A DNA stretch of 64,000 nucleotides from Reichenbachiella agarivorans. GTDB taxonomy: Bacteria; Bacteroidota; Bacteroidia; Cytophagales; Cyclobacteriaceae. Below are positions 6,479-19,642 of this stretch, one piece after another. Where the stretch lies: contig NZ_CP106679.1 in assembly GCF_025502585.1 (NCBI RefSeq), forward strand, positions 477,001-541,000. The letters are read 5' to 3'. How positions within the stretch are numbered: position 1 is the first letter of the stretch; each line of letters opens with the position of its first letter. The notes beneath the pieces are model-generated. The model had not been told where the DNA came from and searched no databases. It saw only the letters and a list, made by a program, of their open reading frames with translations. Made by a program: the position numbers and the translations under genes.

Positions 6479-8278
6479 CTATTTGCTGAGGTAGTAATCT
6501 CTCAACACATAAAATGCCTTTTTCTTTTCTCCTGTATTGCTGATCAATCCTTTTCTGTTCCAGAAGTTTTGATAGATAGGATGTGGTCTTCTTGGGGATT
6601 TGAAGTCGGCTAAAATCCAAGGTGTCATCCCTCTTAACCCGTCAATCTGTTCGAGCATTTTGAGTTGATTCACGTATAAATCCTCTTGGTACTCTTCCGA
6701 CCAGCGGACGCGCTCTTCACTGTGATAGCCTGGCTGTGCTCCCGCACCAAACTCAGAGATAAATACGGGTTTGTCTTGTTCAAATTTGAATTGAATATCC
6801 GATAGTTTGTCCAAAGCATGGCTAGTGTACCAACCTGCATATTCGTTGAAACTGATCAGATCAATCTTGTCGGCGAGGGGATCGTGACAACTCATCACCC
6901 CATCTTTGGTTTCTAATTCTAGAGCGGCAGCCACCAATCTTGTATTGTCCAATCCTCTCACGTGATCCACCAAACCTCCCATGAACTTGAAACGAGGCTC
7001 ATTGACTGGTGTCTCGTTGCCTACCGACCAAACCATCACTGCAGCACGGTTCTTATCTCTATGGATCAAATCTGACAACTGTTGTTTGGCGTTTGCAAAG
7101 GTCTCCACATTCTCCCAAGAGATCGTCCAATACACAGGCACCTCTGCCCAAACCATCAGCCCCATTTGCTCTGCCATTCTCACCATTTTTTCGTTGTGCG
7201 GATAGTGCGCCAATCGCACAAAATTGCAGCCCAACTCCTTGGCCCACTGCAGCATCATGCGGATGTCTCCTTCTGACCTCAGTCTACCAGCCAACAAAGG
7301 ATTTTCATCATGGATGGAGATTCCTTTGAGGAAAATAGATTTGCCATTGAGGAGAATATCCTTTCCTGCCGTTTGGATGGTTCTAAATCCAATCTGATCT
7401 TTCACCTGATCATTGCCATAGGAAATCACCACTTCGTACTGCTTTGGGCTCTCTGGACTCCAATACTTAATTTTCTTGCTCGCGAATTTATACTCTCCTT
7501 TTCCATCTCCGTCAAGTTTGATCAACTGACTCAGTTTCAATTCTGGAATCGACACCTTCACAGATTGACCTGCACTTATTCCACTTACTTGTACATCACC
7601 AAGGATTTCCGTGTTGTTTTGTGGATTGAGTCCCATCGTATAATCTTCCACATGTTCCTTGGGCAAAACAAGAAGCAATACATCTCTAGTGATCCCCCCA
7701 TAGTTCCACCAATCGGTATTGACAGTAGGTACTTCGTCTTGCTTGCGGGTATTGTCGACCTTCAACACTACAAAATTCTTCCCAGCTTTTAACTGATCTG
7801 TCACATCGTATTCAAAAGGAGTAAAACCTCCTTTGTGCTGTCCTAGCTTCTTGCCATTGAGGTAGACATCTGCCACATAATTGACCGCACCAAAATAGAG
7901 TTTGTAGGCTCTTTCCTCCTTGGGAGCCAAACTAAACTCTCTGAAGTACCACACACTGCCTTCATAGAAATTGAGCTCCTCAACCTGTGAATTCCAATCT
8001 CCTGGCACATCCATGGTAGGTGCGTGCTCAAAATCATACTCGATCAATTCATTGGGATGGTTCTGCTGTCGGTTGTCATAGTAGCCTCCCTTGCCAGATT
8101 CGCTCTTGTCAAAAGCCTGCCGGCGGTAGTTGTAAAAGCCATTTTCATAGGGATCAATGAGGTAGTTCCATTGGCCATTGAGGCTAATATTTTCTCTTGA
8201 AAATGGGTTTTGAGTGGTAGCAAACAGCTCTCCTGCTGCTATCGCAAATACAGCGATTAGTAGTAATTTAACTTTCAT
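6479..8278 (-). CDS. Exported glycoside hydrolase family 2 (beta-glucuronidase-like)
   Basis: A 599-residue enzyme with a signal peptide (MKVKLLLIAVFAIAAGELFA), so periplasmic or secreted. It shows the GH2 order: sugar-binding jelly roll (about 25-215; ISLNGQWNYLIDP, GSVWYFREF, VADVYLNGKKLGQHKGGFTPF), immunoglobulin-like domain (about 215-315) and TIM barrel. WSVGNET carries the acid/base Glu (about residue 422) and FISEFGAG the nucleophile (about residue 509). The closest look is beta-glucuronidase/beta-galactosidase, and the true substrate is open. The ATG at 8278 is chosen because the longer frame would start at GTG and add seven residues before the signal peptide. It is divergent from the propeller chemoreceptor gene, suggesting a shared carbohydrate theme. 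Confidence 0.88.
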   Translation of the reverse strand: MKVKLLLIAVFAIAAGELFATTQNPFSRENISLNGQWNYLIDPYENGFYNYRRQAFDKSESGKGGYYDNRQQNHPNELIEYDFEHAPTMDVPGDWNSQVEELNFYEGSVWYFREFSLAPKEERAYKLYFGAVNYVADVYLNGKKLGQHKGGFTPFEYDVTDQLKAGKNFVVLKVDNTRKQDEVPTVNTDWWNYGGITRDVLLLVLPKEHVEDYTMGLNPQNNTEILGDVQVSGISAGQSVKVSIPELKLSQLIKLDGDGKGEYKFASKKIKYWSPESPKQYEVVISYGNDQVKDQIGFRTIQTAGKDILLNGKSIFLKGISIHDENPLLAGRLRSEGDIRMMLQWAKELGCNFVRLAHYPHNEKMVRMAEQMGLMVWAEVPVYWTISWENVETFANAKQQLSDLIHRDKNRAAVMVWSVGNETPVNEPRFKFMGGLVDHVRGLDNTRLVAAALELETKDGVMSCHDPLADKIDLISFNEYAGWYTSHALDKLSDIQFKFEQDKPVFISEFGAGAQPGYHSEERVRWSEEYQEDLYVNQLKMLEQIDGLRGMTPWILADFKSPRRPHPIYQNFWNRKGLISNTGEKKKAFYVLRDYYLSK

Positions 8279-8570
8279 AGTCTTTAGTAATCTTAGCACT
8301 CAAATATACACGTAGCAGCTGGCAATGAAAACCTAAGCAAGCATTATGTGAAGGATAGCTTGAGAATGCTCCGAACCAAGTTCATCCAGGTACTACGCTT
8401 TAAAAATCAGCATACCCAATCATATAGTGTTTCCGAACACACTGTATTTATTACCCGTTTATGACCAATTACCTGTATATAAACACATGGAAAAAAATGT
8501 GAAATAACAGCAAATGGCATTTCAATAAGGAAACCTGTTTATCTTTAAAAGGATTCCCATTACTTTAGCC

Positions 8571-11500
8571 ATGATGCAAGCAATTCGAGAAAAGAACAAA
8601 AAGCACCACCTGTCCCTATTTATACTTCTTATTTTTTTACTACTTCCCAATATTGGGAGTACACAGTCCTCTGCGATCCGGTTTCGGAAAGTCAGTCTCT
8701 CCGAGGGACTGTCATTCAACACAGTCAACTCGATCACGCAGGATCTATTGGGATTCCTGTGGGTGGGTACCGAAGACGGTCTCAATCTGTATGATGGCAC
8801 GAAATTCACAGTTTATAAAAATGACCCTGAAGACTCTCTTTCCATCCCAAGCAATGCGATCAATGAAGTCTATGTAGATGGGCAAAACAGGGTCTGGATC
8901 GCCACCAACAATGGTCTGTGTCTATACGACCGAAACCTCAACAAATTTAGGTCAATAGCCTCCACCTTGGGCATGACCATTACTGGCATCACAATGCTAG
9001 ACCAAAACACACTTTGGCTGGCAGGGAGTCAATCCAAGGGTAAGGATATTTACTCTCTGGATATTACTTCCAAGGAAATCATTCCTATCAACTATGCTCA
9101 AATTCAATCGAAGGGATCATGGAAAATCAGTGCTGGAATCCAGCAATCCATGTGGGTCACAACCCTACAAGACGGGCTATACAAAGTGACTCCAGAAACC
9201 AACGACATTTTGGGAGGACTGGCAGGTAAAACTGTAAGGTCATTCATCGAAGAACCAAACGGCAATGTGTGGGCGGGGACTCAAGGACATGGCTTGTTTT
9301 ATCTAAACAACCAACTGGAAATCATTCGTAGCTATAACGTAAACAATGGTACACTGGAAAGCAACAATATTTGGTCACTGACCCAAGATGATGAGGGCAA
9401 TTTATGGATAGGCACCGATGGCAAAGGTCTCTACCTGTTGGATCAAAATGGTGAACTCAAAAACTACCAAAAAGATGCTGCTATCAAAGGCTCTCTGAGT
9501 TCAAACGTAATCAGAGCGATGTACAAAGACCAAAAAGGGGATTTGTGGCTGGGAACTTATTTAGGTGGACTCAACTACCACAGCAAGAAAAACAACCTCT
9601 TTGAGCATTTCAAAAACAATTCTTGTGATCCAACTAGTCTATCAAATGACATAGTGCTTTCGTTCGAAGAAAACAAAGAAGGAAACATCTGGGTGGGTAC
9701 TGATGGTGGAGGGCTGAATTTGTACAAAAATAGTCTATTCGAGCATTTCAGCCAAAGCAAAGACGGACTGGCCGGTTCTGTGATTTTGGATTTGTTTGAG
9801 GACCATGATGACGAGCTATGGATAGGCACCTACGCTGGTGGAATCAGCCGATACGTCAACGGCAAATTCCAAACCTATAATGAGTCTAATTCTGAACTGA
9901 GCAACAACTCGGTCTGGGCGATAGGAGAAGATCCTGCTGGTAGAATCTGGCTTGGCACCAACGGAGCAGGTATCTCAGTCTATGACAAAGCTACAGGCAA
10001 TTTCAGTACATACACCCATGATGACAATGATCCCAATAGCCTCTCCAACAACACCATCAGATCAATATTTTCGGATCACAACCACCAACTCTGGATAGGC
10101 ACGTATGGCGGTATCAATCTTTACCAACCAGAAAAGGACAATTTCAAACACTATCCTTATGAAACCCAAGAAGGAGATACGGGCATCAATTTGATTATTT
10201 CTATCACTGAAGACAAAAAAGGAAATCTATGGATGGGAACCTATGGTGGAGGATTGTTGAAGCTGGATCCAGTAGCGGGAACATTCGAGAATTTCACACA
10301 GGCAGATGGTGTACAAAGTGGAATTATCTTTGGCGTAGTAGTCGATGATGGAGGAATGATTTGGCTCAGCTCTAGCAATGGCTTGATGAAATTCGATCCT
10401 GAAAGCAAAAAGGTTGTGGTCTATGGTGAAAGCGATGGATTACAAGGCAACACCTTCAGCATCGGTTCTTACTTCAAAGATTCCAAAGGTAGGGTTTATG
10501 TAGGTGGAAACAATGGTTTCAACTCCTTCGATCCCAATCACATCAACGTCAGTGATTTCAAACCCAAAGTTTTCATCACCAATCTTCTCATCTATAATAA
10601 AATAGTAAATCCTGGCGACAAGGACTCTCCTCTTACCCAACAAATGAGTGTCACAGATCATCTAACCCTTGACTCCAAACAATCTGTTTTTGGTTTTGAA
10701 TTCGCCGCACTCAACTTTACGAATGCAAGTAAGAATCAATATGCCTATTGGATGGAGGGATTTGAAGAGGAGTGGAATGAAATAGGTAACAGAAACTTTG
10801 TCACCTACACCAATCTTGATCCAGGAAAATACACTTTTCATGTCAAAGCTACCAACACCGATGGTGTCTGGAGTGACGAAGCTACGGTTCTACAACTGAC
10901 CATTCTACCTCCATGGTGGGCAACCTGGTGGTTCAGGTTATTGAGCGCAATCATCGTCATCAGTATCAGCTACTACATCTACCGTAGTAAAAAGATACAA
11001 AGACAAGAGACGATGCAACTGTTGGAGCAAAAAGTAAACGAAGCAGTCGCAGCAGTCAAATCACAAAATGACGAATTGGTCAATCAAAAAGGCAATCTTC
11101 AAGCAGCCATCGAAGATACCAATTTTGTAATCACAGAAGCAGTCGAATCAGGCAACTTCAGTGCAAGAATCAACACTGAGCTCAAATCAGGAGAATGGAA
11201 AGCGCTCGGAGAATCCATCAACCAATTGTTTGAATCCGTGCTCACACCATTCAATGCCATCAATGAAGTCATCAACAAAGCTTCTCAGAGTGATCTGACA
11301 GGCAGGTATACTGGAGTGGCTCACGGGGACATTCTGTACCTGACCAGCAACCTGAATACCGCCATGGAGAACCTGTCTACCCTACTTTCGGAGATCAGTA
11401 ACAAAGTAACTGTCATCGGCATGGCATCTCAAGAAATGCTCCTGACCACAGAAGAAATGGATGCCAGCACTACCGAAATCTCCACCGCTATTGCACAGAT

Positions 11501-12308
11501 GAGTCAAGGAGCCAACTCCCAACTAAACAGTGTGGATCAATCCACCCAACTGATGGAAGGCATACTCAGCTCATCCAACGAAATGGGAGATCAGGCACAG
11601 TCCATCAAAAACACCGCTCAATCTGGGGCAGAAAAGAGCCAAGAAGGTATGCAGCTGATCGGAAAACTCGATCAAAACATGAAGGATATATTGCGGTTTT
11701 CGGATCAAAGCAATTTATCTATTAGCACCTTGACCCAAAGATCCAAGGAAATCACCAGCGTGATCCGTATCATCAAAGAAATTGCAGCACAAACCAATCT
11801 GCTAGCACTCAATGCAGCCATCGAAGCAGCACAGGCAGGAGACTCAGGGCGTGGCTTTGCGGTCGTAGCAGAAGAGATCCGAAAACTCGCAGAGGACTCC
11901 AGAAAGTCAGTCACTGAAATAGAAATGCTGATCTCTGGCGTGCAGACAGACACCCAGTCAACAGCCAAATTAATCTCTGAGATGGGTACTTTTGTTCGTG
12001 CTGGAGAGGAAGCTTCTCAGCGTACATTGACGACTTTCAAAGAGATAGCCAAATACTACATACAGACCTTGGGTAAATCCGAAATGATTGTTCATGCTAC
12101 TGAAAAACAAACCAGCGATGTAGAAAATGTCGTCAATATCTTGCGTGGATTGGTGGTAATCGCCGAACAGACTGCTGCTGGGACTGATGAAGTTGCCAGC
12201 TCTGCTACTGAGCTATCCTCTGGTATGACCAACTACATCAATCAAAGCAAACAAGTGCTCCAAATCGTCAACCAGCTCCAACAAAAAATGGAAGAGTTTA
12301 AATTGTAA
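8571..12308 (+). CDS. Hybrid receptor: Reg_prop beta-propellers + Y_Y_Y + chemoreceptor (MCP) signalling domain
   Basis: A 1245-residue membrane receptor. After a signal peptide, residues about 35-680 hold 14 Reg_prop-type motifs (FLWVGTEDGLNLYDG, LWIGTDGKGLYLL, IWLGTNGAGISVYD and others), enough for two seven-bladed propellers. A Y_Y_Y domain follows (about 695-775), then one membrane helix (about 782-805), a coiled coil, HAMP-like helical segments (about 860-940) and a methyl-accepting signalling domain (about 945-1240). The hairpin tip near residue 1077 reads EIAAQTNLLALNAAIEAA, followed by GRGFAVVAEEIRKLA, so the CheA/CheW contact region is intact. In Bacteroidota this sensor normally feeds a histidine kinase or DNA-binding domain controlling glycan use; here the output is a chemotaxis array. 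No CheA, CheW or C-terminal tether is in the window. Ligand unknown. Confidence 0.9.
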   Translation: MMQAIREKNKKHHLSLFILLIFLLLPNIGSTQSSAIRFRKVSLSEGLSFNTVNSITQDLLGFLWVGTEDGLNLYDGTKFTVYKNDPEDSLSIPSNAINEVYVDGQNRVWIATNNGLCLYDRNLNKFRSIASTLGMTITGITMLDQNTLWLAGSQSKGKDIYSLDITSKEIIPINYAQIQSKGSWKISAGIQQSMWVTTLQDGLYKVTPETNDILGGLAGKTVRSFIEEPNGNVWAGTQGHGLFYLNNQLEIIRSYNVNNGTLESNNIWSLTQDDEGNLWIGTDGKGLYLLDQNGELKNYQKDAAIKGSLSSNVIRAMYKDQKGDLWLGTYLGGLNYHSKKNNLFEHFKNNSCDPTSLSNDIVLSFEENKEGNIWVGTDGGGLNLYKNSLFEHFSQSKDGLAGSVILDLFEDHDDELWIGTYAGGISRYVNGKFQTYNESNSELSNNSVWAIGEDPAGRIWLGTNGAGISVYDKATGNFSTYTHDDNDPNSLSNNTIRSIFSDHNHQLWIGTYGGINLYQPEKDNFKHYPYETQEGDTGINLIISITEDKKGNLWMGTYGGGLLKLDPVAGTFENFTQADGVQSGIIFGVVVDDGGMIWLSSSNGLMKFDPESKKVVVYGESDGLQGNTFSIGSYFKDSKGRVYVGGNNGFNSFDPNHINVSDFKPKVFITNLLIYNKIVNPGDKDSPLTQQMSVTDHLTLDSKQSVFGFEFAALNFTNASKNQYAYWMEGFEEEWNEIGNRNFVTYTNLDPGKYTFHVKATNTDGVWSDEATVLQLTILPPWWATWWFRLLSAIIVISISYYIYRSKKIQRQETMQLLEQKVNEAVAAVKSQNDELVNQKGNLQAAIEDTNFVITEAVESGNFSARINTELKSGEWKALGESINQLFESVLTPFNAINEVINKASQSDLTGRYTGVAHGDILYLTSNLNTAMENLSTLLSEISNKVTVIGMASQEMLLTTEEMDASTTEISTAIAQMSQGANSQLNSVDQSTQLMEGILSSSNEMGDQAQSIKNTAQSGAEKSQEGMQLIGKLDQNMKDILRFSDQSNLSISTLTQRSKEITSVIRIIKEIAAQTNLLALNAAIEAAQAGDSGRGFAVVAEEIRKLAEDSRKSVTEIEMLISGVQTDTQSTAKLISEMGTFVRAGEEASQRTLTTFKEIAKYYIQTLGKSEMIVHATEKQTSDVENVVNILRGLVVIAEQTAAGTDEVASSATELSSGMTNYINQSKQVLQIVNQLQQKMEEFKL

Positions 12309-16968: not shown

Positions 16969-17718
16969 CTAGAACTGCTGCAACACCTCCAAGAATGTTT
17001 CCTTTTTGGCTCTTGCCAAAGGGATATGACTACCATCAGACATTTCAATAGAACCACCTTCTCGTTTGTCAAATTTGCGAAGCTGATTCATATTGATCAA
17101 ATAAGAGCGGTGAACCCTGAAAAAACCTCTTTCCCTCAGCAGCAATTCATATTCCTTGAGTGTTTGTGAAATAACCAACACTTGACCGTCCTTCAAATGA
17201 AACTCAGTATAGTTATTGTCAGACATGCAATAAACAATATCGTTTACCTCTACAATCTGAATCGTATTTTGATCCTTGAGTACAATCTTTTTAAACAAAT
17301 GATCATTGTCTTGGACACTTTGGGTCAACTGACGAATCTGTTGGACATCTGGAAGCTGAATCAAGTCCCTAGTCACCTTTTCAATGGCTATTTTAAATTC
17401 AAACGGATTGATGGGTTTGAGAATGTAATCCAATGCGTTGTACTTAAAGGCCTTAACCGCATATTCATCATGACCAGATATAAAAATAATTTTGAAAGAC
17501 AAACGATCCTCATCCAACATACCGAGTAAGTCAAAACTGGTACCCGACCCTAGATTAATATCTAAAAGTGCCAAGTCAGGACGATATTCGTCCAATACAT
17601 CCAAGGCCCCTTGGATAGAATTTGCCTCTCTTATTTCTGCCAATGGAATGGCTCGCAGCAGGAAACTTCGTAAGGTAGCAAGTGCAGCTGGCTCATCGTC
17701 GAGCAAAAATACTTTCAT
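16969..17718 (-). CDS. LytTR-family response regulator
   Basis: A 249-residue response regulator. The receiver (1-120) has the acidic pair DDE at 7-9, phospho-acceptor Asp53 in LALLDINLGSG, the Ser/Thr of IIFISGHDEYA and Lys in YILKPINPFEF. Residues about 145-245 are a LytTR DNA-binding domain (IVYCMSDNNYTEFHLKDGQ, FFRVHRSYLINMNQLRKF, IPLARAKKETF). It starts 4 bases after the TPR histidine kinase gene and so forms a two-component system with it. The adjacent cadherin-like lipoprotein gene on the same strand is a possible target. Confidence 0.92.
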   Translation of the reverse strand: MKVFLLDDEPAALATLRSFLLRAIPLAEIREANSIQGALDVLDEYRPDLALLDINLGSGTSFDLLGMLDEDRLSFKIIFISGHDEYAVKAFKYNALDYILKPINPFEFKIAIEKVTRDLIQLPDVQQIRQLTQSVQDNDHLFKKIVLKDQNTIQIVEVNDIVYCMSDNNYTEFHLKDGQVLVISQTLKEYELLLRERGFFRVHRSYLINMNQLRKFDKREGGSIEMSDGSHIPLARAKKETFLEVLQQF

Positions 17719-17722
17719 CCAA

Positions 17723-19642
17723 TTAGGTTGTAATTAGTTTCGTTGGCAAGGTCAAACTTATCCTAAAGCCTCCTATGTCACCCGATGCATTGATAATGTT
17801 TTGTGATTTCAATCCGATTTCATCTTTCATGGCTACTTGCATCACTGCCAATCGTTCGCGGGTGATTTGAGTCGCCAATGAGTTGTGACTTTCTTTATTT
17901 TGAACATCGCTGATCCCAATTCCCGTATCACTGATCTCCAAGCCTACCAATTGCTTTGAAATATAACCAAAACGTACTGTGACTTCATTGATCTCCTCAC
18001 CTTTGCGAAATAGACCATGTTCCAAGGAGTTTTCGATAAATGGCTGTGCAAACATGGGAGGTACACCTACATAGTCCTCATCAAGTCTCTCATCAATTTC
18101 GATGTGGTAATTGAATTTGTCCTGAAAACGCATTTTCTGCAGCTCCATATAATTGGTCAGCATATCTACCTCTTCGGTCAAGGTGATAAATTCCCTTCGG
18201 CTGTTTTCCAAAATCTGACGCATCAGCGTACTAAAAGTACCCATAAAATACCCCGCTTGTTCCGCATCATTTTCAAGCAGGTATTGCTGAATAGCTGTCA
18301 TAGAATTGAAGATAAAATGAGGGTTGAGCTGTGACCGAAGAAAACGCTGCTCAACTGCACCTGCCTCCTGCCTTAGTTTAAAACTCCTGCGCTGAGTCAA
18401 CGTCACACCTACCGCTATCAACAACAAGAGTCCAATCACCACCGCACCAAACTGTGTGTTGCGCTGGCTGATAGTCAGTGATTGTAATTCTGCCTGTTGG
18501 TTGAGGTTGAGTATTTCCTGATCCTTTTTTTCTGTTTCATATTGAATCTGCATGTCGGCAATTTGCTTGTCATTCTTGGCGTTTCGAACCGAATCAGTAA
18601 AGTTCATTAGCTTTTTTAAATTCATAGCCATGCTTTTGTAATCACCACGTACACTATCCATTTTGTACTTCTCTCTATAGCAAAGTTCCAAGCTACTTTC
18701 AGCCAAAAACCTTTTTGCCCAATATTCTGCAGAATCCAAATAGACTGTTGCCAGATCGTAGCGCCCCATACGACTATAGTTGATCCCGACATTGCTGTAG
18801 CAGGACACAAACTCTGACTTATCCAAGCCTTCCTGATTTACATAGTCCAGTGCCGCTTTGTTAAGTGCAACTGCCTCGGCATAGTCACCCTTGGCGTAGT
18901 AAATAGATGCTAAATTGGTACTCATCAGTAATTTCTTCCCCATCTGATTCCTTTCATCATGGTACTGCATCAATTTTCGAAATATAGCCGCTGCAGAATC
19001 CAGGTTATGGGCGTAGTAGTAAAACCCTGCCAGATTATTCAAATGATTGACTTGGGCCTGTGAAGTAATAGAGTCTTCATAGGTATCCACCAACTCTTGC
19101 TGAAGTTTAATCGCCTTTTCTAAATTGCCTGTCCTCATATAGGCGAGTGCCAGAGTGCGCAAATTGAGTCGGAGGAGTCCTTCTTCGGGCTTTAGTTTTT
19201 GGGCTTTAAGGCAATAGAAAATAGCACTATCATACTGACCCATTAAGTGTACTGTACCTAACTGAGAATAAATCCAGCCTAATTCTACAGTGTCTTTATC
19301 TTGTACCGCTATATTTCGGGCTTTATAAAGCATAAATCTAGATTCCTCCATCTTTCCTACTTTTGATTGGGCGTAGGCCAATTTGCGGTAAGCAAATGCT
19401 TGTTTTTGGCCAATGCGCTCCGAGAGTACTACAGCCTTGTGGGCATAGTACTCAGCACTATCACTCCGTATCAACTCGACATAGAGATCTGAAATATCTA
19501 TGAACTGAGTTAAACATGAATCTTCTGGCAGGTTCTTTACTATTACAAGGAGACTATCTAATTTGAGGCGGTCCTCACTAGCCTGTATGCCACTAAAAAT
19601 AGTCATGACCACAATCAAAATGGCAGGGATTTTATACTTCAT
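17723..19642 (-). CDS. TPR-containing sensor histidine kinase (LytS/His_kinase type)
   Basis: A 639-residue sensor kinase. A signal peptide (MKYKIPAILIVVMTIFSGIQA) leads to a periplasmic array of TPR repeats (about 40-360; for example YYAKGDYAEAVALNKAALDYV), one membrane helix (about 398-416; FGAVVIGLLLLIAVGVTL) and a His_kinase (PF06580) domain with LNPHFIFNSMTAIQQYL, in which His442 is the expected phosphorylation site. An HATPase-like region follows (MFAQPFIENSLEHG; ISDTGIGISD). It pairs with the LytTR regulator encoded 4 bases downstream. Such TPR-LytS pairs are common in Bacteroidota; the signal sensed is unknown. Confidence 0.92.
   Translation of the reverse strand: MKYKIPAILIVVMTIFSGIQASEDRLKLDSLLVIVKNLPEDSCLTQFIDISDLYVELIRSDSAEYYAHKAVVLSERIGQKQAFAYRKLAYAQSKVGKMEESRFMLYKARNIAVQDKDTVELGWIYSQLGTVHLMGQYDSAIFYCLKAQKLKPEEGLLRLNLRTLALAYMRTGNLEKAIKLQQELVDTYEDSITSQAQVNHLNNLAGFYYYAHNLDSAAAIFRKLMQYHDERNQMGKKLLMSTNLASIYYAKGDYAEAVALNKAALDYVNQEGLDKSEFVSCYSNVGINYSRMGRYDLATVYLDSAEYWAKRFLAESSLELCYREKYKMDSVRGDYKSMAMNLKKLMNFTDSVRNAKNDKQIADMQIQYETEKKDQEILNLNQQAELQSLTISQRNTQFGAVVIGLLLLIAVGVTLTQRRSFKLRQEAGAVEQRFLRSQLNPHFIFNSMTAIQQYLLENDAEQAGYFMGTFSTLMRQILENSRREFITLTEEVDMLTNYMELQKMRFQDKFNYHIEIDERLDEDYVGVPPMFAQPFIENSLEHGLFRKGEEINEVTVRFGYISKQLVGLEISDTGIGISDVQNKESHNSLATQITRERLAVMQVAMKDEIGLKSQNIINASGDIGGFRISLTLPTKLITT

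Follow-up and report, generated by a model that had tools for sequence, protein, structure and literature searches.

How can a sensor that Bacteroidota use for glycans come to stand before a chemoreceptor output, and what may it do there? The question is raised by one gene in a stretch of 64,000 nucleotides from Reichenbachiella agarivorans (contig NZ_CP106679.1, positions 477,001 to 541,000; hereafter the window), whose product joins Reg_prop propellers and a Y_Y_Y domain to the signalling hairpin of a methyl-accepting chemotaxis protein (MCP). Reg_prop/Y_Y_Y proteins form a major glycan sensor class of this phylum, known from kinases and cyclic-di-GMP enzymes. The gene represents a real and recurrent rewiring of this known sensor type to a chemoreceptor, and we consider it rather likely that the protein detects products of polysaccharide breakdown and signals into one CheA pathway.

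The receptor and its sensor

The gene and its parts are as follows.

8571..12308, + strand: Reg_prop/Y_Y_Y chemoreceptor gene, 1245 aa (open reading frame, ORF, and Pfam)
8607..8663, + strand: N-terminal hydrophobic segment, residues 13-31, probable signal peptide (hydropathy peak)
8676..10550, + strand: two beta-propellers with 14 blade signatures, about residues 36-660 (Pfam, signature count, AlphaFold2 model)
10713..10907, + strand: Y_Y_Y domain, residues 715-779 (Pfam)
10923..10979, + strand: single transmembrane helix, residues 785-803 (hydropathy peak)
11073..11151, + strand: putative fusion joint, coiled linker, about residues 835-860 (ends of homologue matches)
11187..11372, + strand: HAMP_2 domain, residues 873-934 (Pfam)
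11616..12131, + strand: MCP signalling domain, residues 1016-1187 (Pfam match)
11778..11831, + strand: hairpin tip EIAAQTNLLALNAAIEAA, residues 1070-1087 (sequence, alignment of relatives)

Sensor and output domains all score above their Pfam cut-offs (Reg_prop 2.5e-50, Y_Y_Y 2.8e-21, MCPsignal 1e-34, the last with 120.3 bits against a cut-off of 34.6), and a HAMP_2 domain, overlooked in the original prediction made from the sequence, lies between membrane helix and hairpin (35.0 bits against 24.3). The 14 blade signatures run from residue 63 to residue 646, and hydropathy peaks at residue 13 near the N-terminus and at residue 785 past the sensor, a weaker peak (1.32) at residue 581 being within the propeller. 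Pfam, signature count and hydropathy thus confirm what had been predicted, namely fourteen Reg_prop motifs and Y_Y_Y joined through one membrane helix to a full MCP domain, and the tip motif is intact, as was claimed. Of 16 relatives of full length, 13 have an N-terminal peak above the threshold and 15 have a post-sensor peak above it; a second copy in the same genome (L023, see below) stays under it at both positions. Nearly all of tip residues 1072-1086 are invariant in the 16 relatives, and this tip is what we take to be the contact region for CheA and CheW. The receptor's Pfam matches include neither HisKA or HATPase_c nor a receiver or AraC domain; five further Reg_prop proteins in the genome carry a histidine kinase, a receiver and an AraC-type domain all together. 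The same genome also encodes, at about 1.078 Mb (L199:2774-5716), a 981-aa Reg_prop/Y_Y_Y protein without a recognised output domain after Y_Y_Y.

To which known sensor is the ectodomain related? Its best PDB sequence match by phmmer is 4a2l, that is BT4663 (E 2.9e-123, residues 16-785). Residues 28-800 were modelled with AlphaFold2 on the basis of 16 sequences (mean pLDDT 86.9, pTM 0.68), and for this model Foldseek ranked the ten chains of 4a2l and 4a2m first, with TM 0.83-0.91, followed by 3v9f (BT3049). The entries 4a2l and 4a2m describe BT4663 as sensing heparin and heparan sulphate. Domains, sequence and fold therefore agree with the predicted combination of a sensor of the hybrid two-component type with an MCP output. 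Hybrid two-component regulators (HTCS) of the BT4663 type share with the receptor two propellers, Y_Y_Y and one membrane helix, with 31% identity in the ectodomain, but they carry kinase, receiver and AraC domains in the chain where the receptor has HAMP_2 and MCP. Other outputs are found behind this sensor class in the Xanthomonas oryzae proteins GdpX2 and GdpX3 and in HtsH1-3 from Lysobacter (PMC6637768, PMC8463545), but there the output is GGDEF or a kinase instead of an MCP. Usual MCPs, in turn, have small periplasmic domains, and the receptor has a propeller sensor of about 750 residues in their place. To our knowledge, a propeller sensor of this kind is not catalogued among MCPs. No description of the Reg_prop/Y_Y_Y-MCP architecture was found in the literature searched, which was mostly open-access, and the claim of an undescribed system stands to that extent.

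Recurrence and origins of the fusion

Is the receptor a single oddity, as it had been treated at first? Its joint region (A2, residues 715-960) was searched at a threshold of E <= 1e-60 in samples confined to Bacteroidota, and of the 390 genomes sampled from the family 12 proved to be carriers, spread over 6 of the 84 genera. These carriers have up to six matches each and 27 in all, of which even the weakest reaches 2.9e-95; the spread proposed for checking has been mapped in these samples, and the idea of a lone oddity is rejected in favour of a recurrent family. Two contigs of genome G585 bear the same stretch. By genus, carriers amount to four of the eight genomes in the window's own genus, one of them with six matches, and to four of the six in the genus of G161. 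In the order sample of 390 genomes the window's genome alone was matched, while in the phylum sample of 395 kinase-type relatives reach 1.4e-46 at best among the matches listed; of eight joint-spanning phylum matches that were opened among those listed, three (G198, G203, G346) have the order Reg_prop/Y_Y_Y/MCP. A scan of the contigs of the whole collection found the whole joint matched in two of the best 80 loci, in Marinoscillum pacificum MRN461, a genus placed in Reichenbachiellaceae by NCBI, and in a Cyclobacteriaceae metagenome-assembled genome (MAG); the other loci among these 80 are without an MCP-domain match in an ORF. R. agarivorans has a second gene that encodes this architecture (L023:6899-10660), also missed earlier and 36-37% identical to the window receptor, whose nearest homologue is G583c (L212:5862-9701; 60.6% over 1048 aa), the 5' part of which is interrupted. 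A further relative, in a MAG, is split into two overlapping frames (L068:7412-11261 and L070).

How often, then, has the sensor changed its output? The joint at about residues 835-860 is where matches of the two sorts meet: those of kinase-type relatives mostly end at or before it, and those of MCP-only proteins mostly start at about 833-836. In a tree of MCP modules with 24 receptors, 21 are on one branch (100/100), and three receptors of the same genus (G068b, G154b, G583a) are placed among other MCPs. A single clade of the 24 modules is rejected by the approximately unbiased test (p-AU 0.0043), as it was in an earlier 16-row test (p 0.0041), and one clade with the Rhodothermus-like rows added is rejected too (p-AU 8e-5). 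It is to be noted that the 24-receptor tree omits own_L025, own_L026, own_L032 and three Rhodothermus rows, which are in the tree of the earlier test, and that the split L068 gene, the G627 gene and the twin contig copy in G585 are in no tree. A separate origin of the family's sensors was also considered and found no support, one sensor clade being not rejected (p-AU 0.27) in a tree that kept 62 of 88 rows, 11 rows having been dropped and others thinned out. The Rhodothermus-like proteins of G198, G203 and G346 likewise run from sensor through Y_Y_Y and membrane helix to MCP and are 28-31% identical to the receptor, but differ in showing no HAMP_2 match, another linker and another MCP lineage. 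The MCP modules of the family thus fall in two separate lineages, with a third fusion in Rhodothermus-like genomes, and the swap of output probably happened at least twice in the family and again in Rhodothermus-like bacteria.

The CheA pathway and the cue

If the hairpin is functional, the genome should hold its partners. The presence of cheA and cheW had been named as a check, and both were found: the genome (one contig, 4,474,154 bases) has six CheW matches, two of which are inside CheA proteins with Hpt, H-kinase_dim and HATPase_c, besides 12 MCPsignal matches, one of them short. One cluster (L024) comprises CheW, an MCP, a ParA-like ATPase between this MCP and CheB, a second CheW protein, CheB, CheA, CheR, a receiver-only protein, which is putatively CheY from its place and length, and a CheX-like protein below the cut-off. 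The other cluster (L025) has its own CheA, CheB and CheR. Residues 950-1235 of the receptor match residues 15-300 of the chemoreceptor 2ch7 with equal lengths, so that HAMP, full hairpin and canonical tip are shared with MCPs of the TM1143 length type. In an alignment of fixed-length segments, the hairpin arms of 16 receptors are 111 and 141 residues long, and the same lengths are seen in the MCP of the L024 cluster and in five more of the nine other own MCPs; of the rest, one has 111/136, and the MCP of the L025 cluster and that of L032 have 90/120, 21 residues shorter per arm. CheW was found in all 11 other carriers tested, a set leaving aside G583, G585 and G627. In each of four carriers (G059, G060, G088, G180) only one CheW match is of CheA size, and the CheA in question shares 54-62% identity with that of L024 and 31-33% with that of L025. 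Because arm lengths match and the sole CheA of four carriers is L024-like, the receptors are paired with the L024-type CheA as their likely partner; that there is a CheA output at all is highly probable.

What cue may be sensed? The original prediction pointed to a carbohydrate on account of the divergent neighbour:

6479..8299, - strand: divergent GH2 gene, 606 aa, beta-galacturonidase/beta-glucuronidase type, possible partner (Pfam, sequence matches, motifs)

Its product is closest to AqGalA, a beta-galacturonidase, with beta-glucuronidases next, and keeps the GNE and SEFG motifs, presumably catalytic. A paralogue (46%) is found elsewhere in the genome at L202:2053-10183, two genes away from a hybrid regulator. 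This GH2 is the sole glycan-degrading gene at the window locus, and the Bacteroidetes promoter consensus has two matches in the window, where 2.58 would be expected, neither being in the gap between GH2 and receptor. Apart from these genes, a LytTR response regulator adjoins a TPR-linked His_kinase protein at 16969-19642 of the window.

The surroundings of relatives are more telling in three cases. One (L062) is in an alginate locus, with PL7, two PL6-type lyases (Chondroitinas_B), a sugar-isomerase-like protein and 2-keto-3-deoxy-6-phosphogluconate (KDPG) aldolase around it, together with a classical HTCS and a weak cupin match. Another (L215) stands on one strand in the series GH39, GH78, receptor, GH88, 3-keto-disaccharide hydrolase, and the third (L211) has a sulphatase two genes downstream, after which a SusC-like frame was noticed by eye only. 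In addition, GH20 genes are beside the L023 and L064 copies, and a GH114 gene is two genes away from the L056 copy. An oligosaccharide-type cue is therefore probable in our estimation. The part of the earlier claim that leaned on the window GH2 fares less well, for that gene is only divergent, and, with adjacency in the sensor groups compared with that of control MCPs (see below), it was rejected as sufficient evidence.

What the receptor may do

Can such a signal reach movement? The genome has GldJ (short form), GldK, GldL and PorP/SprF above cut-offs, the first GldJ model having given sub-cut-off pieces only, while FliG has no match in it (4 of 14 control genomes were matched). Movement, if it is the output, should thus be gliding, and for gliding or another movement as the output we see about even chances. 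In Roseithermus (Rhodothermales), three of five MCP genes are up on xylan according to PMC7409140, an observation which does not bear directly on this receptor type. Elsewhere in the R. agarivorans genome (L026:641-5456) another MCP gene is near frames that by eye resemble a DUF4340 protein and an ABC component which we take to be of GldG type.

The mechanism that we infer, from the ligand and the course of the signal to the CheA partner and gliding as output, would run as follows. Oligosaccharides freed from a polysaccharide would bind the periplasmic propellers of the receptor. Paired Y_Y_Y domains would then close, in the scissor-like manner that Lowe et al. are said to have proposed for BT4663 in 2012, and the movement would pass through the membrane helix and the coiled linker to HAMP_2 and then to the MCP hairpin, through which CheA of the L024-type cluster would change in activity. 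CheB and CheR, which are present in both clusters of the genome, would in the L024-type cluster provide adaptation, and its CheY would act on the behaviour of the cell, the most likely target being the direction or bias of gliding driven by the type IX secretion system (T9SS).

Several observations weigh against this reading. No GH2 was seen next to the nearest homologue, G583c, and several relatives are among apparent housekeeping genes. A carbohydrate gene is within two genes in at least 6 of 14 sensor groups, and of the genome's other MCPs at least 2 of 7 have one as well (L031 with a GH109-type gene, L028 with an SASA esterase). These counts, made with neighbours only partly scanned in both sets, neither support nor exclude enrichment. 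The Rhodothermus rows are ungapped in the arm alignment and have 14-residue gaps in another, so their arm lengths are less certain. Finally, a link from CheY to the T9SS motor was not found in the available part of PMC12239597.

Alternatively, a glycan may be sensed while the CheA pathway controls biofilm, adhesion, secretion or gene expression. CheA systems with outputs other than motility are established, FliG is unmatched, and genes for a DUF6272 protein, a SiaC-family phosphoprotein, a histidine kinase and a response regulator precede the L024 cluster (L024:1207-5061); however, the SiaC gene is matched in only one of four related clusters and the kinase, response regulator and DUF6272 genes in none of the four, and gliding-type genes are present, so we regard this alternative as somewhat improbable. 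Less likely again is a sensor that binds another envelope ligand or a protein, like the propeller protein PorZ. The receptor matches PorZ weakly and below cut-off in sequence (NF052228, 107.8 bits against 260) and distantly in fold (5m11), and many relatives are outside carbohydrate loci, but the heparan-sulphate sensor BT4663 is by far the best match in sequence and fold, and the three relatives within polysaccharide loci speak for glycans. As for a chance or decaying fusion without function, the relative in two frames (L068/L070) and the interrupted 5' part at L212 could suggest it; against this, the long frame is intact here, joint and tip are conserved over the 27 matches in 12 genomes, and the fusions are of separate origin, which makes this reading very improbable indeed.

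What would a receptor for polysaccharide breakdown products mean for these bacteria? Some polysaccharide loci may, as a tentative thought, own a chemoreceptor, so that the same products are read twice, by an HTCS that turns on digestion genes and by an MCP that steers the cell, by way of one CheA pathway, to the dissolving polymer. The alginate locus, which has the HTCS and the MCP version next to each other, would illustrate this best, and it names a candidate polymer, so that the idea is directly testable. If true, polysaccharide digestion would be tied to behaviour through repeated sensor-chemoreceptor fusions, T9SS gliding would have a defined chemical input, and the unsolved problem of direction choice in gliding Bacteroidota would gain an input that can be tested. 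Fragments of a food polymer may thus steer cell behaviour besides gene expression.

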